A DNA stretch of 34,058 nt from Thermoproteus sp. CP80. GTDB lineage: Archaea; Thermoproteota; Thermoprotei; Thermoproteales; Thermoproteaceae. The notes beneath the pieces are model-generated. The model was not told the DNA's origin, did not search any database, and saw nothing but the letters and a program-made list of their open reading frames with translations. The stretch spans positions 1-34,058 of the forward strand of contig NZ_LCWM02000020.1 in assembly GCF_002077075.2 (NCBI RefSeq), read 5' to 3'. Of the stretch, positions 19,638-25,587 are shown piece after piece (the stretch's first letter is position 1; each line of letters begins with the position of its first letter). A program made the position numbers and the translations under genes.

Positions 19638-19724
19638 TCCGGACGGCGGCAAAACTACGTGCTCTGCAGGAGGCTAGGCGAGGCTCCGGCGCTTTATAGA
19701 TAAATAGAGGCGCTATGGGGGGCC

Positions 19725-20603
19725 GTGGGCGATATCGCCGGCGTGATATTAGCTGGCGGACGAGGCGTGAGGTTCGGCGACCCCTTCAAGTGCTTGAGGC
19801 CAGTCTGCGGCGTCCCCATGATCTTGAGAGTGGCGGCCGCGCTGCAGCCTTTTTCGTCCCGCTTGGTGGTGGCCACAACCAAGTTGCATGGACCTATTGC
19901 GTGGTTGGCCAGGCTGTGGGGCATGGAGGTGGTCTACACCGAGGGTCGCGGGTATGAGCCGGATTTCTCCGAGCTACTCGCATATGCCCCCGCGGTGGTG
20001 GCCGCCTGCGATCTGCCGTTCCTGGCGCCAGGACACGTGGCCAGACTGATCTCCAGGCCTGTCATGTCCACGGCCGTGGGCGAGGGAGGTTATGTGGGCC
20101 TCACCTGGCTCCCCGATGGCGACACGACGAGATGGGTCGACGTATATATGCCCGACCTGAGGGACGTAGACGCGCGTGAGGACTGGATGGCTCTGGCCAA
20201 CTGCGCCGGCCCCACATACCCCATGTTCGTCGACCCCAGCTCCCTCCTGCCCCATGAGGGCGTGGAGGCCGTGCCCGCGCTGGGCAGTAGGGTGAGGCCC
20301 ATAGCCGTCGACGCCTGGACATGTACTGTGCTGGATGGACATCACCGACTCAGCGCCCTGGCTGAGCGCGGGTTGCCGGTCCCCGTGATCCCCCTCGACT
20401 ACTCCCGCATCGACGTGCGTGACGGCGCCGGCAACGAGGTGTCCAAGCTGGCCGTAATTTCCGCGGCCTCGCGCGGCGCCAGACTCGGCGTGCGGGCCAC
20501 CCGCCATTATTACAACGATGTGCACGTATCGGAGCTGAGCCGCGTCGAGGTGGACGTGGACTTCCTGGCCGGCGTAAGGCCGACAAAATGCGACCACCTC
20601 TAG
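19725..20603 (+). CDS. CobY guanylyltransferase fused to ParB/SerK-like kinase domain
   Basis: The 292-residue protein has two domains. Residues 1-~150 form a MobA/CobY-type nucleotidyltransferase: GVILAGGRGVRFGDPFKCL (6-24) and ACDLPFL (94-100). In cobamide synthesis CobY joins GMP to adenosylcobinamide-phosphate. Residues ~165-292 resemble the ParB/sulfiredoxin-fold kinases SerK and SbnI: VDPSSLLPHEGVEA (169-182), then VDAWTCTVLDGHHRLSAL (195-212) and IPLDYSRIDV (222-231). Known members phosphorylate free serine. CobD in the same cluster needs threonine phosphate, so this domain may be the missing L-threonine kinase (inference). The GTG start lies about 26 nt after a TATA-like atagataaat block. 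It heads the cobamide cluster. Confidence 0.75.
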   Translation: MGDIAGVILAGGRGVRFGDPFKCLRPVCGVPMILRVAAALQPFSSRLVVATTKLHGPIAWLARLWGMEVVYTEGRGYEPDFSELLAYAPAVVAACDLPFLAPGHVARLISRPVMSTAVGEGGYVGLTWLPDGDTTRWVDVYMPDLRDVDAREDWMALANCAGPTYPMFVDPSSLLPHEGVEAVPALGSRVRPIAVDAWTCTVLDGHHRLSALAERGLPVPVIPLDYSRIDVRDGAGNEVSKLAVISAASRGARLGVRATRHYYNDVHVSELSRVEVDVDFLAGVRPTKCDHL

Positions 20604-20658: not shown

Positions 20659-20676
20659 ATGGGGGAAAGAGGGCCC

Positions 20677-21138
20677 GTGATCCTCGCCTATACGGGCGAC
20701 GGGAAGGGCAAGACCACGGCCGCACTGGGCTTATCCTTAAGGGCCTGGGGTCACGACATGAGGGTACTCGCCGCATTTCTCATGAAGACGCCTAGGTATC
20801 TCGACGACTACGTGGGCGAATACAAGGCGTTGAGGAGGCTGGGGGTCAGGACGTTATACCTAGAGGACCACAAGACTCCGAGGGAAATCCTCGAGGAAGT
20901 CCTGGCGCTGGCCCCGAGCTACGACCTAATCGTGTTGGACGAGTTCAACTACGCCGTGAGGCAGGGCTTCCTAAGGCCTGAGGACTTCAGAAAGCTCCTG
21001 GCACTGAGGGCCCACGTGGTGGTGACCGGGAACTACAACTATGCCGAGCTCGCGTCGGCCGACCTAATATCTGAGGTTAGGTCCGTCAAGCATTATTATT
21101 CGAGGGGCTTCGTCGGCGTCAAGGGCCTGGACTGGTAA
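20677..21138 (+). CDS. cobA: ATP:corrinoid adenosyltransferase CobA
   Basis: The 153-residue P-loop protein belongs to the CobA/CobO/BtuR family, which transfers the adenosyl group of ATP to cob(I)alamin or a precursor. The start region VILAYTGDGKGKTTAALGLS holds the P-loop at residues 7-13, with Walker B at LIVLDEFNYAV and the family-typical VVTGNYNYAEL and ADLISEVRSVKHYYSRG. GTG 20677 was chosen over ATG 20659 because the TATA box ends right before that ATG and because family members begin at this strand. It is followed by cobT with its own TATA element. Confidence 0.88.
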   Translation: MILAYTGDGKGKTTAALGLSLRAWGHDMRVLAAFLMKTPRYLDDYVGEYKALRRLGVRTLYLEDHKTPREILEEVLALAPSYDLIVLDEFNYAVRQGFLRPEDFRKLLALRAHVVVTGNYNYAELASADLISEVRSVKHYYSRGFVGVKGLDW

Positions 21139-21167: not shown

Positions 21168-22154
21168 ATGAGACCCGTGATCGTCGTCGTGGCGGGTACT
21201 ACCGACATCTCCCTAATACCGGGCATAACCATCGCGGGGGCTTCGCCCGAGCTCACCCACTACACGCCGGCCGCCGATGTTGAGTATCTACTTACGGGCC
21301 GGCCCAGGAGCATACCCGGCATACCTGTGACGCCCGACGGGATACCGACGCCAGCCGTGGTGACGAGAGCGCTTACTCGCGATGTGCCGAAGCTGGTGGC
21401 CTTCGCAGGCGGGAGAGTGAGGCCTAGGGTGCCCTATATAGATCTCGGAGGAGAGCCCGGCGGAGACTTCAGGAGAGGGCCAGCGCTTTCGGAATCGACG
21501 GTCGAGAACATCCTAGAGAATGGGAGGACGCTCGGCCGCGAGTTGGCCAAGGCCGGCGACGTCTTCATAGGGGAATCCATACCGGGCGGCACCACCACAG
21601 CCATGGCTATCCTAGTCGCGCTGGGCTACGATGCTTGGGGCAAGACCTCATCGGCCAGCCCCAACAATCCGAGAGGGCTCAAAGCCGCTGTGGTTAGAGA
21701 GGGCTTGGCGAGGGCTGGACGCCTAGACGATCCTGTCAAGGCTCTGGCTGAGGTGGGCGATCCCGTCCATGCGGGCGTCGCCGCCATCGCCCTCGGCGTG
21801 TTGGATGCCGGAGGCGCGCCTGTGCTCGCCGGCGGCACCCAGATGCTCGCCGTAGCGGCAATCATTAAGTCGCTCGGCGGCGATCTGGGCAAGGTGGCCG
21901 TCGCCACTACCGGGTGGATAGTCGACGACAGGTCCGCCGACTTTCTAGGCCTTGCGAGGGAGATCGGCGTTACTAACATCAAGGTGACTAGAACGTCGTT
22001 CTCATCGTCGCGTTTTCCGGGTCTTAGGTACTACGACAGGGGCTACGTCAAGGAGGGCGTGGCCATGGGCGGCGCGTTGTATATAGCCTCTCTCCGCGGC
22101 TTGCCGGTGCTCGAGCTGGTTGAACGCGAATACGAGGAGCTGGTTAGGCCTTGA
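21168..22154 (+). CDS. cobT: CobT-family phosphoribosyltransferase, archaeal form
   Basis: The 328-residue protein matches the archaeal homologues of nicotinate-nucleotide:dimethylbenzimidazole phosphoribosyltransferase, which make the alpha-ribazole-type nucleotide of the lower ligand. Signatures are VVVAGTTDISLIPGITIAGASPELTHYTPAADVE split across residues 5-38, GESIPGGTTTAMAILVALGYDAWGKTSSASP split around 133-163, and GGTQMLAVAAIIKSLGGDL. The ATG has a tttaatata TATA block at the leaderless distance. Its TGA overlaps the TTG of cbiZ. The lower-ligand base used by this organism cannot be told from sequence. Confidence 0.88.
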   Translation: MRPVIVVVAGTTDISLIPGITIAGASPELTHYTPAADVEYLLTGRPRSIPGIPVTPDGIPTPAVVTRALTRDVPKLVAFAGGRVRPRVPYIDLGGEPGGDFRRGPALSESTVENILENGRTLGRELAKAGDVFIGESIPGGTTTAMAILVALGYDAWGKTSSASPNNPRGLKAAVVREGLARAGRLDDPVKALAEVGDPVHAGVAAIALGVLDAGGAPVLAGGTQMLAVAAIIKSLGGDLGKVAVATTGWIVDDRSADFLGLAREIGVTNIKVTRTSFSSSRFPGLRYYDRGYVKEGVAMGGALYIASLRGLPVLELVEREYEELVRP

Positions 22155-22705
22155 CGCTCTTCGTGCTGGATCTCGGCCGCGATCTATCCGCCTTAGGCAA
22201 CGTAGTCCTCGGAGGCTTCGGCAGAGTGAGGTACGTCGTCTTTAAGCAGGTAGATAGATATGTAGAGGATTTCGAGCTCTACGCACGGGCCCTCCTGGAG
22301 GGTTTGGGCATAACTAATAGGGCGGCAATATTCTTCACAGCAGTAGATATATCGTCGATGAGACACGTCGAGGGCCGGCTGGTGGAGCTATACGCCACGG
22401 TAGGCTTGGCCAACCCGGCGTGTATAGGCGATAGGCCCACTGGAGGAGCGCACACAGTCAATATCTTGGTCGTGTCCAAGACAGCTCTCTCTAGTCGAGG
22501 GCTCCTAGACCTCTACAGGACTGCCGCTGAGGCCAAGGCGGCGACGCTGACAGCCCGCGGCCTCTGCGGCGGGAAGCCGTCTCTAGGCACCGTGTCGGAC
22601 GCCGTACTTGTCGCAGCGCCTCCGGGGGATGCCCACTACGCTGGCGCGGCCACCGAGGTGGGCGCTGAGGCATCTTTTTTGATATACGAAATATTAAATA
22701 AATAA
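22151..22705 (+). CDS. cbiZ: adenosylcobinamide amidohydrolase CbiZ
   Basis: The 184-residue protein resembles CbiZ, which removes the aminopropanol side chain from adenosylcobinamide so that salvaged corrinoids re-enter the pathway at adenosylcobyric acid. Key stretches are FFTAVDISSMRHVEG, then GGAHTVNILVVSKTALS, TAAEAKAATLTARGL and GTVSDAVLVAAPPGD followed by YAGAATEVG near the C terminus. The start is a TTG overlapping the cobT stop, implying coupled translation. With cobY, cobA, cobT, cobD and cobS it gives a salvage and nucleotide-loop pathway. Confidence 0.82.
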   Translation: MTLFVLDLGRDLSALGNVVLGGFGRVRYVVFKQVDRYVEDFELYARALLEGLGITNRAAIFFTAVDISSMRHVEGRLVELYATVGLANPACIGDRPTGGAHTVNILVVSKTALSSRGLLDLYRTAAEAKAATLTARGLCGGKPSLGTVSDAVLVAAPPGDAHYAGAATEVGAEASFLIYEILNK

Positions 22706-22818
22706 GAGATAACTAATATTGTTTTAACATAAATAACTCTAAAATAGAAATAGAATATATTAATATAATATTTATTATTATGGATGAAAATTTAAAAATA
22801 AAAATCGTATCCAGTTCC
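22706..22818 (+). promoter_or_regulatory. AT-rich promoter island before the FAD gene
   Basis: About 110 nt of almost pure A/T (for example ttaatataatatttattatta) contrasts sharply with the GC-rich surroundings. Two TATA-like blocks, near 22754 and 22790-22798, sit 26 nt before ATG 22780 and ATG 22819. The second (tttaaaaat) supports the start used here. The size suggests extra regulatory sites or a termination region for cbiZ. Confidence 0.5.
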
Positions 22819-23988
22819 ATGAAGAAGGTAGTAATAGTCGGAGGTGGAATAGGGGGGATGGCGGTTGCCAACACGTTGATATCTGGGAAAATTGGCGCCG
22901 AGATATTCGTCGTGACCCAGAATCCACATTACGTCTCAGGCCCTAGCAGGCCTCTGCTGCTGACCAAGGAGCAGACGCTGGACAGAATTGTGAGGGGGTA
23001 CGAGGAGGCGATGAGAAGAGGCGTGAGGGTCGTGGTGGGCACCGCGTTCTCCATCGACCCAGCTAATAGGAAGGTGAGGTACGTCGGCGGCTATACATCC
23101 GACGGCGGGATGGGCGAGCTCTCCTACGACTACCTAGTCTTGGCGCCCGGCGTGGTGCTCGACGGCTCTGGCATAACCGGCTACGACAAATATAGGCGAA
23201 ACGTGCTAAACGTCTACGATCCTGGCCGCGCGCATCTGCTTAGGAACAAGATCTGGAGCGCCGAAAGGGGCACCATCGTCGTATATGCGCCTAAGGCCCC
23301 CTATCGTTGCGCCCCGGCGCCTACCGAGACGGCGTTGCTCATAGACTCTGTCCTACGCCATAGAGGCATGCGCGAGAGGTTTAGGATAATCCACATAGAT
23401 GCCAACGACAAGACGCAGCCGCCGGTAATAGCCGACGTGGTCTCCCAGATATATTCGCGGCAGGGGATAGAGCTCGTGACAGGCCAAGAGATCGTCGAGA
23501 TAGGCGACAGCGAGGTGGTCACCAAGTCTGGAGAGCGCTATAGGTACGACGTTCTTGCTCTTCTGGAGCCCAATAGAGCGCCTAAGCTCGTCGAGGAGGC
23601 CGGGCTGGGCAAGACCTGGGTCGACGTGAGGAGCCCGCAGGACCTCAGACATCCCAAATATGACGACGTGTTGGCCGTGGGCGATGCGGCGGGTCTTCCG
23701 TTTCCAAAGAATCAAGAGATAGCGTTCGAGAGCGCGTTGTTCGCCGCCAACAAGATACTGGAGATGGAGGGGTCCTCCTACAGGTCGTCCGTCCAATACG
23801 CGTTCGTCGGGTGGGCCTACGTTGGCAACCCCGAGGGCAGGCTGGAGAGCCTATCCGTCAGATTCGGCCTGGACTTCACAAGCCAGCCTCCGAAGCCGAG
23901 CAAGGACCCTGAGCCTAAGAGGGACTATACAGCGGCCAAGGACAACTGGGAACAAAGCTATCTAGCCAACCTATTCGGATACGGCTAA
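22819..23988 (+). CDS. FAD-dependent oxidoreductase, SQR-like, single cysteine
   Basis: The 389-residue flavoprotein is in the SQR/flavocytochrome-c FAD family. It has [17 protein letters not shown] (residues 4-20), [10 protein letters not shown] (103-112), and the late FAD motif [22 protein letters not shown] split over 282-303. Only one cysteine remains, Cys164 in [10 protein letters not shown]; SQRs use a cysteine pair, and the C-terminal one is missing. It therefore probably does not make polysulfide by the usual route. It sits inside the cobamide cluster, so it might reduce the corrinoid before CobA acts, but that is speculation. ATG 22819 was chosen over 22780 because of TATA spacing and the AT-rich, uncoding-like leader; the longer form would add [13 protein letters not shown]. 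Confidence 0.75.
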
Positions 23989-24016
23989 GCCCTTAAAATT
24001 ACAGATCTACTTGCGA

Positions 24017-24925
24017 GTGCACGGAGGCACTTCGTGGGCTGAGCCCGAGGTGTTGGATTTCAGCGACAATTTAAACCCAATAGGCCCTCCGCCGGGCCTC
24101 CCTGAGCTAGTCCTCGCGGCGGCCGAAAGAGGGGTCTATTTGAGGTTTCCCGCGAATTTGGCCGAGGAGGTTCTGGAACGATACGAGGGCGTCGAGGTCG
24201 CTCTTTTCAACGGAGCCACGGAGGCGTTGATGACCATGGTATCTGCGTTGAGACCCAAGAGGTTGTTGCTACCCTGGCCCACGTACAGCGACTATGTCCG
24301 CATAGCCGGCTTGTTGGGCCTGGAGGTCGTAAGGGGACGCCTAGACGAGCTCGTGGGGCTTGCCACATCGGGAGATCTGCTGCTTATATGCAACCCCAAC
24401 AACCCCACCGGCTCCGTCATGGGACGCGACGAGATCCTAGAGCTTCATAGGATCTTGAAAGGCCGCGGCGCGCAGATATTGGTGGATGAGTCCTTCCTAG
24501 ACTTCGTCGATGAGGAGACCGCGGCGCCTGACGTGCCGGTGGTCAAATCCTATGGGAAGATATTCGCAATCCCCGGCCTTAGGCTGGGGGCCGCACTGGG
24601 ACGCGTGAGGCAGGATGTAAAGTCGCCGTGGCGGATCAACGCATTGGCGGATTACGCCATATACAACATCGGCGCCGAGACCTTAAGGCGCCATAGGGAG
24701 TCCACGCGTAGGTATGTGGCCTCCGAGGGGCCCAGGGTCCAGGAAGCTCTATCGAGGTGCGTCGAGGTGGTCAAATCGCGCCTACATTTCTTCGTGATCA
24801 AGGGCTGGACCAGCGCCGTGAAGATAAGACCCCTCGACGATCTCGGCATGCCGGGCTATTCCCGCGTCTCGATAAAGAGAAGGGAAGACAACGAAGTGCT
24901 GATCAAGGCCCTATGCAGTGCTTGA
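24017..24925 (+). CDS. cobD: CobD-type L-threonine-O-3-phosphate decarboxylase (PLP)
   Basis: The 302-residue fold-type I PLP enzyme resembles CobD, which decarboxylates L-threonine phosphate to (R)-1-amino-2-propanol phosphate, the linker of the nucleotide loop. It begins VHGGTSWAEPEVLDFSDNLNP, has CNPNNPTG (125-132), DESFLDF (157-163) and the PLP lysine Lys181 in SYGKIFAIPGLRLG. It could in principle be a histidinol-phosphate aminotransferase relative, but the HGG start, the short length and cobS directly downstream favour CobD. The GTG start was chosen by a cttaaaatt TATA block 26 nt upstream; a TTG at 24011 is the alternative. It overlaps cobS by 13 nt. Confidence 0.82.
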   Translation: MHGGTSWAEPEVLDFSDNLNPIGPPPGLPELVLAAAERGVYLRFPANLAEEVLERYEGVEVALFNGATEALMTMVSALRPKRLLLPWPTYSDYVRIAGLLGLEVVRGRLDELVGLATSGDLLLICNPNNPTGSVMGRDEILELHRILKGRGAQILVDESFLDFVDEETAAPDVPVVKSYGKIFAIPGLRLGAALGRVRQDVKSPWRINALADYAIYNIGAETLRRHRESTRRYVASEGPRVQEALSRCVEVVKSRLHFFVIKGWTSAVKIRPLDDLGMPGYSRVSIKRREDNEVLIKALCSA

Positions 24926-25587
24926 GGGCCCTCCTGGGTTTCTTCGCCATACTGCCCGTCGGGGCCGAGCTCGACTTCTCCTGCGCCTGGGCGCTACCGT
25001 ACACGGTGGCGCCTCTCCTCGGCGGCTTGTCGGCGCTTGCGTTGATAGGCCTAGGCCCTCTCCCGGCCTATCTAATCCTGCTTCTGTTGACCGGGCTCAA
25101 CCATCTCGACGGCCTCGCGGACACCGCAGATGCCCTGATGGTCAGAGACAGAGAAAGGGCTAGGGCAGCGCTGGAGGATCCCCGCAGAGGCACCGCGGGG
25201 ATATTCGCCGTAGTTGCCTCTATAGCGTTGGCAGTCGACTACTTGAGGAGCCCGTGGCAGTTGCTCCTAGGCGAGATCTTCTCCAAATCCCTAGTGGTCG
25301 TTCTCGCGGCCTTCTCGAAGCCCTTCAAGGATGGCTTGGGCTCGGCCTTCATAAGCTCTGTGAAGAGCAGATGGCCCCTCGCCATGCCCGCCCTCGCCCT
25401 GGCCTTAGTGGTGTATCCCGTCTCCTCGCTGGCGCTGGCTCTATCGGCGTTGGCCTACTATATAGCGTATAAACATCTGGGCGGCGCCAATGGCGACGTC
25501 CTCGGCTACCTGCTGGAGCTCAGCAGAGTCTTCTTCATAGCCGCGACTAGCGCCTTTCTACCTTCGATATCTTGCCCTCTATGGTGA
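24913..25587 (+). CDS. cobS: cobalamin synthase CobS (cobamide-5'-phosphate synthase)
   Basis: The 224-residue membrane protein joins adenosyl-GDP-cobinamide to the lower-ligand riboside (phosphate). The metal-binding signature TGLNHLDGLADTADALM (about residues 56-72) is the hallmark, with GTAGIFAV and the later GGANGDVLGYLLELSRV motif also conserved. Five to six hydrophobic helices are visible. CobS is often about 240-260 residues, so this is slightly short but complete. The ATG lies inside the 3' end of cobD (13-nt overlap). The last 41 nt overlap the opposite-strand DUF77 gene. Confidence 0.88.
   Translation: MQCLRALLGFFAILPVGAELDFSCAWALPYTVAPLLGGLSALALIGLGPLPAYLILLLLTGLNHLDGLADTADALMVRDRERARAALEDPRRGTAGIFAVVASIALAVDYLRSPWQLLLGEIFSKSLVVVLAAFSKPFKDGLGSAFISSVKSRWPLAMPALALALVVYPVSSLALALSALAYYIAYKHLGGANGDVLGYLLELSRVFFIAATSAFLPSISCPLW

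Follow-up and report, generated by a model that had tools for sequence, protein, structure and literature searches.

The locus considered here raises the question of how cobamide-producing archaea obtain L-threonine phosphate, the substrate of the decarboxylase CobD, which enteric bacteria make with PduX, a GHMP kinase, and for whose formation many archaea have no assigned gene. In Thermoproteus sp. CP80 a 34,058-nucleotide stretch of DNA (contig NZ_LCWM02000020.1, the whole of which is called the window below) carries at 19725-20603 a single open reading frame (ORF) with a GTG start and no internal stop, coding for 292 residues, exactly as an earlier sequence-only reading had given it. The gene joins a CobY-type nucleotidyltransferase to a domain related to the free serine kinases SerK and SbnI. 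With a probability of about 0.68, it encodes a two-headed cobamide enzyme, composed of a CobY half and a SerK/SbnI-kind kinase that phosphorylates L-threonine for CobD. This reading draws on the fusion, the fold, the conserved catalytic residues, the purifying selection, the gene context, the co-occurrence with cobamide genes and the absence of PduX; from these we infer kinase activity, threonine as the substrate and ADP or ATP as the donor. The features of the fusion gene are the following:

19725..20603, + strand: fusion gene, CobY plus SerK-like, 292 residues (AlphaFold pLDDT 95.9, pTM 0.93)
19725..20189, + strand: CobY-type nucleotidyltransferase domain, residues 1-155 (Pfam NTP_transf_3; PDB fold match 3rsb)
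20214..20600, + strand: SerK-like kinase domain, residues 164-292 (profile, hhalign, AlphaFold and Foldseek)
20256..20258, + strand: codon of E178 in LLPHE, counterpart of SerK E30, invariant in 14/14 fusions
20334..20348, + strand: DGHHR, residues 204-208, counterpart of SerK 69-73 (alignment)
20499..20507, + strand: TRH, residues 259-261, counterpart of SerK 223-225, T and H invariant

The C-terminal half gave no match in the Pfam scan (ParB and GHMP families included), and no additional domain was detected in the ORF. A profile of 14 such domains, searched against PDB sequences, retrieved SerK (5x0b and its mutants) with E-values of 9e-8 to 6e-7 and the Pyrococcus SerK orthologue 1vk1 with 1.3e-6, the remaining matches being at chance level; the stretches aligned with SerK were DGHHR...LDY and K..V...G...PKTTRH. 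Comparison with SerK-like relatives by hhalign gave 99.4%. The AlphaFold model of the domain (pLDDT 93.2) was compared with the PDB by Foldseek, and ranks 1-9 were occupied by SerK, 1vk1 and SbnI at a probability of 1.00, followed by ParB-type structures at 0.69 or less. The sequence-only reading, which was to be given up if this domain did not align with SerK/SbnI, thus withstood all three methods, and the fold and kinase class are firmly those of a SerK/SbnI-type free amino-acid kinase. Its label 'ParB/SerK-like' is best restricted to SerK-like, because true ParBs score clearly lower; a ParB_N domain with helix-turn-helix and dimerisation domains was not found in the ORF by the Pfam scan. 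Nor is the fold that of PduX, the ORF having no GHMP match in Pfam and the fold being that of SerK. The SerK equivalog model NF053625 (cut-off 380 bits) did not match the fusion protein at E<=1.

The motifs LLPHE (residues 174-178) and VLDGHHRLSAL (202-212) lie where they had been placed. When the window is translated in six frames, the spaced pattern PHE...DGHHR...T[RWK]H is seen a single time, whereas none of 2000 shuffles contained it. The C-terminal half is conserved in 13 genomes besides the window's own, with invariant PHE, LDGHHR, Y, T.H.Y and H.S positions in the alignment of the 14 domains. The R of TRH (SerK R224) is replaced by W in the Pyrobaculum clade, the equivalents of T223 and H225 remaining invariant. 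The roles of SerK residues were taken from PDB titles and mutant sequences: entries titled SerK E30A and E30Q, which contain phosphoserine, AMP or ADP, mark E30, located in the KPHE motif, as a residue tested for catalysis. The ratio of nonsynonymous to synonymous substitution (dN/dS) of the SerK-like domain is 0.08-0.16 in five pairs, with dS large or saturated in some of them, and is similar to that of the CobY half; the domain is under purifying selection.

In the N-terminal half, residues 6-111 match Pfam NTP_transf_3 (PF12804) with an E-value of 4e-16, the sole Pfam match in the ORF, and the top Foldseek match of the full-length AlphaFold model in the PDB was 3rsb_D, the CobY of Methanocaldococcus jannaschii. 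Both results agree with the CobY-type guanylyltransferase recognised earlier from the sequence. The best 50 matches of the full-length model all fell on the CobY half, and the C-terminal domain was therefore searched separately. The fusion protein reached 15.8 bits against the methanogen CobY model NF045495, whose cut-off is 250 bits; we infer the CobY assignment from fold and gene context, since CobA, CobT, CbiZ, CobD and CobS stand in one row with it. As a separate observation, genome G001, from a different family in the order, encodes a 540-residue protein that combines a CobY-like with an asparagine-synthase domain and adjoins CobS and CobT (L130:4056-5678).

The fusion gene is the first in a row of seven + strand genes separated by 75 bases or less, the order being fusion, CobA, CobT, CbiZ, flavin oxidoreductase, CobD and CobS:

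19693..19706, + strand: TATA-like A+T-rich stretch tttatagataaata, read directly, about 20-32 bases 5' of the GTG
20659..21138, + strand: CobA/BtuR, ATP:corrinoid adenosyltransferase (PF02572, E 1.5e-32)
21168..22154, + strand: archaeal CobT, base activation (TIGR00303 above cut-off)
22151..22705, + strand: CbiZ, adenosylcobinamide amidohydrolase (PF01955, E 1.6e-30)
22780..23988, + strand: FAD/NAD(P) oxidoreductase, sulfide:quinone-reductase-like family (PF07992; NF049943 below cut-off)
24011..24925, + strand: CobD, L-threonine-phosphate decarboxylase (TIGR01140, E 2.5e-46, under the curated cut-off)
24919..25587, + strand: CobS, AdoCbi-GDP ribazoletransferase (PF02654, E 3.8e-34)

CobD thus lies in the same cluster as the fusion, as had been claimed, and its 304 residues include no C-terminal extension. 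The TATA-like stretch would fit a leaderless transcript starting at the fusion gene. The listed ORF of CobS starts at 24757, yet the family match begins at about 24919 (TIGR00317 from residue 55 of the listed ORF). The flavin oxidoreductase, which keeps its place between cbiZ and cobD in two other genomes (G042 and G041), is a candidate corrinoid reductase for CobA.

The full fusion was found in 6/6 Thermoproteus and 8/11 Pyrobaculum genomes of the same family, among them Thermoproteus sp. UBA157 and AZ2, Pyrobaculum oguniense TE7 and Pyrobaculum sp. WP30. Within Pyrobaculum, the fusion, CbiB and CobS are jointly present in G027, G028, G030-G034 and G036 and jointly absent in G029, G035 and G037; the table of fusion against CobS for both genera is 14:0:0:3 (Fisher p 0.0015, relatedness ignored). 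The three negative genomes yielded no other SerK-like gene, so that the domain disappears with the cobamide pathway, and no second SerK-like gene was seen in any fusion genome. This co-occurrence, together with the gene context, favours a cobamide role. The window's own genome, an assembly only 77% complete, gave no CbiB match. In a third genus (G043, L080:3026-3767) the fusion gene is apparently frameshifted, possibly a pseudogene or the product of assembly errors, and that genus has no CbiB or CobS match.

The other half of the argument concerns the missing threonine kinase. PduX, said earlier not to be seen, was not found in the assembled part of the host genome, whose GHMP kinases were typed as galactokinase, homoserine kinase, mevalonate kinase and pantoate kinase. 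In relatives GHMP genes were compared by number, types being assigned in the window's own genome; the count in the cobamide-negative Pyrobaculum G029 is as high as in positive genomes, and GHMP gene number therefore does not track the pathway. Weak GHMP proteins of 290 residues in the sister family were considered as PduX and rejected, their counterpart in the own genome being pantoate kinase. For haloarchaea, L-threonine kinase (EC 2.7.1.177) is still recorded as a gap in the pathway (PMC8305020). An archaeal answer to this gap is the CobD of Methanosarcina mazei (MM2060), a bifunctional L-threonine kinase/decarboxylase according to titles cited in PMC9986279; it was the only archaeal solution in the literature searched. 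A CobY-SerK-like fusion was not described in that literature, subscription journals lying outside its coverage, and a 2025 survey of ParB-fold fusions (PMC12704722) makes no mention of cobalamin, cobamide, B12, guanylyltransferase or nucleotidyltransferase.

According to the proposed mechanism, the C-terminal domain would convert L-threonine and a nucleotide to L-threonine 3-phosphate, E178 being the expected general base and the DGHHR and T..H stretches presumably holding the nucleotide. CobD of the same cluster would decarboxylate the product to aminopropanol phosphate, and CbiB would attach this to the corrin. The CobY half, judged by its fold and context, would then transfer GMP onto adenosylcobinamide phosphate, that is, onto the same linker phosphate. 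CbiZ would convert salvaged cobinamide to adenosylcobyric acid, for which reason salvage would also need the linker; CbiZ occurs in 13/14 fusion genomes, which gives salvaged cobinamide a way back into the pathway ahead of the CobD/CbiB step. The simplest reason for fusing two non-consecutive steps is matched expression.

Several facts weigh against this assignment. Threonine is not accepted by the archaeal SerK that has been characterised (PMC5120207). The fused domain is missing the insert found at 100-193 in SerK, the helix that follows E30 and the segment with W102, which most relatives conserve and which is deleted in 14/14; with that helix and segment gone, kinase activity cannot be taken for granted. 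The 14 fusions form one clade and are not 14 independent cases, and in Pyrobaculum the CobY half by itself could explain the co-loss with CbiB and CobS. The sister family (G002-G026) possesses CbiB, CobS, CobD and a stand-alone CobY, and a SerK-like gene in only three genomes of one genus; another threonine kinase must therefore exist in the order, and the SerK-like fusion is not the sole solution there. Finally, many SerK-like relatives appear from their neighbourhoods to be tied to cysteine synthesis, i.e. to serine.

SerK-like domains occur in 161/398 Thermoproteota genomes, and many of their genes either adjoin a cysteine-synthase-like gene or form part of a SerK-SerK'-synthase fusion. This is expected for serine kinases, since Thermococcus has a serine-to-cysteine route using SerK (PMC5120207). 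It also indicates that the family feeds phospho-amino acids to adjoining pyridoxal-phosphate enzymes; the enzyme of this kind next to the SerK-like domain in the window is CobD, which acts on threonine phosphate. Proteins of 580-658 residues (L073, L074 and L075) contain two tandem SerK-like domains and a cysteine-synthase-like enzyme, the first domain having DGEHR, not DGHHR. Many marine group II archaea (L143-L205) have short SerK-like proteins that keep W102, with no cobamide or cysteine-synthase-like gene detected nearby, and in a Rhizobium genome (L145) about 1.4 kb separates a SerK-like gene from a cysteine-synthase-like one. The loss of W102 was tried as a mark of threonine specificity, the W being present in 16/21 cysteine-linked proteins and gone in all fusions and in two cobamide-linked Ignisphaera proteins. 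It was rejected as unreliable because cobamide-cluster proteins of 215-232 residues in Ignisphaera keep the W and one cysteine-linked Ignisphaera protein has I.

It is unlikely that the domain has remained a kinase of free L-serine, the phosphoserine being turned by CobD into ethanolamine phosphate for a norcobamide or feeding cysteine synthesis. Norcobamides built from ethanolamine phosphate occur in Sulfurospirillum, which counts for this possibility. The serine specificity of SerK (PMC5120207) and the association of its relatives with cysteine-synthase-like enzymes, by adjacency or fusion, count for it too. However, the cobamide-negative Pyrobaculum genomes lack the domain, which is therefore not needed for cysteine; the site differs from that of SerK on its amino-acid side, where W102 and the helix following E30 are missing; and the best score of the window's CobD is as threonine-phosphate decarboxylase.

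Bacterial CobU joins cobinamide kinase and guanylyltransferase activities, and the hydroxyl of aminopropanol is chemically like that of threonine, so that the domain might be an adenosylcobinamide kinase and the fusion a CobU-like bifunctional enzyme. This is very improbable, since CbiZ, which in archaea replaces the cobinamide kinase route, is encoded in the cluster and in nearly all fusion genomes, the phosphate is already supplied by CobD and CbiB, SerK-fold kinases use small free amino acids, and no link to the CobU fold was seen in the Foldseek searches with the domain or the full-length model. The slightest chance of all falls to a domain that binds nucleotide without being a kinase and serves to regulate or stabilise CobY, a role that is open to ParB-fold modules, which bind CTP, ATP or GTP in many fusions (PMC12704722): parts of the SerK site are indeed deleted, but the E30 equivalent, DGHHR and T..H are invariant in 14/14 and ParBs score well below SerK/SbnI in Foldseek.

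The assignment of the fused domain as an L-threonine kinase finds a parallel in Ignisphaera, a member of another class, in which CobS is present in all six genomes. In G327, G202 and G313 the order (cobT-cbiZ-)cobY-cobD-cobS-cbiB is followed directly by a SerK-like gene, coding for 224-232 residues in G327 and G202 and cut shorter by the contig end in G313; in G185 and G236 a SerK-like gene lies within about 4 kb of the cobamide cluster. A second SerK-like copy adjoins a cysteine-synthase-like gene in G327 and G185. The cobamide cluster of G344 is without a SerK-like gene, and the link is thus frequent, not universal. Judged by gene order, Ignisphaera would be an independent case of a SerK-like gene linked to cobamide genes. 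A common ancestor of the fused and the cobamide-linked Ignisphaera domains was considered and rejected, the tree separating them, on a weak backbone.

There is probably, then, an unrecognised SerK-fold family of L-threonine kinases in archaeal cobamide synthesis, taking the place of PduX/BluE and of bifunctional CobD, CobY-fused in Thermoproteaceae and encoded by a separate operon gene in Ignisphaera. If so, one protein of Thermoproteaceae introduces the linker phosphate and later guanylylates it, the SerK fold has been recruited for a second amino acid, and the missing enzyme was hidden in a gene whose sole family match is a plain NTP transferase. With a compact candidate named in Thermoproteus tenax, Pyrobaculum and Ignisphaera, the EC 2.7.1.177 gap can be tested directly.

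Compared with known systems, the window protein shares fold and cobamide context with the CobY of M. jannaschii, which is single-domain whereas the window protein is fused. With the L-threonine kinases PduX and BluE it would share the reaction (EC 2.7.1.177), but no relation in sequence or fold was seen and no such gene was found in the own genome. The CobD of M. mazei is reported to combine kinase and decarboxylase in one protein with a C-terminal extension, which the window's CobD does not have. SerK, the ADP-dependent free L-serine kinase of Thermococcus kodakarensis (TK0378; PDB 5x0b family; NF053625), has the same fold, and its motifs KPHE with E30, DGHHR and the C-terminal K..V...G...PKTTRH have counterparts in the fused domain, which, unlike SerK (242 residues), has about 130 residues, is fused to CobY and is set in a cobamide cluster. 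SbnI, the free serine kinase of staphyloferrin B synthesis (PDB 5ujd, 5uje and 6nr6), matches the fold at a probability of 1.00; it is a bacterial, ATP-dependent, serine-using enzyme of about 254 residues, and it supplies a phospho-amino acid to the adjoining enzyme of its pathway.
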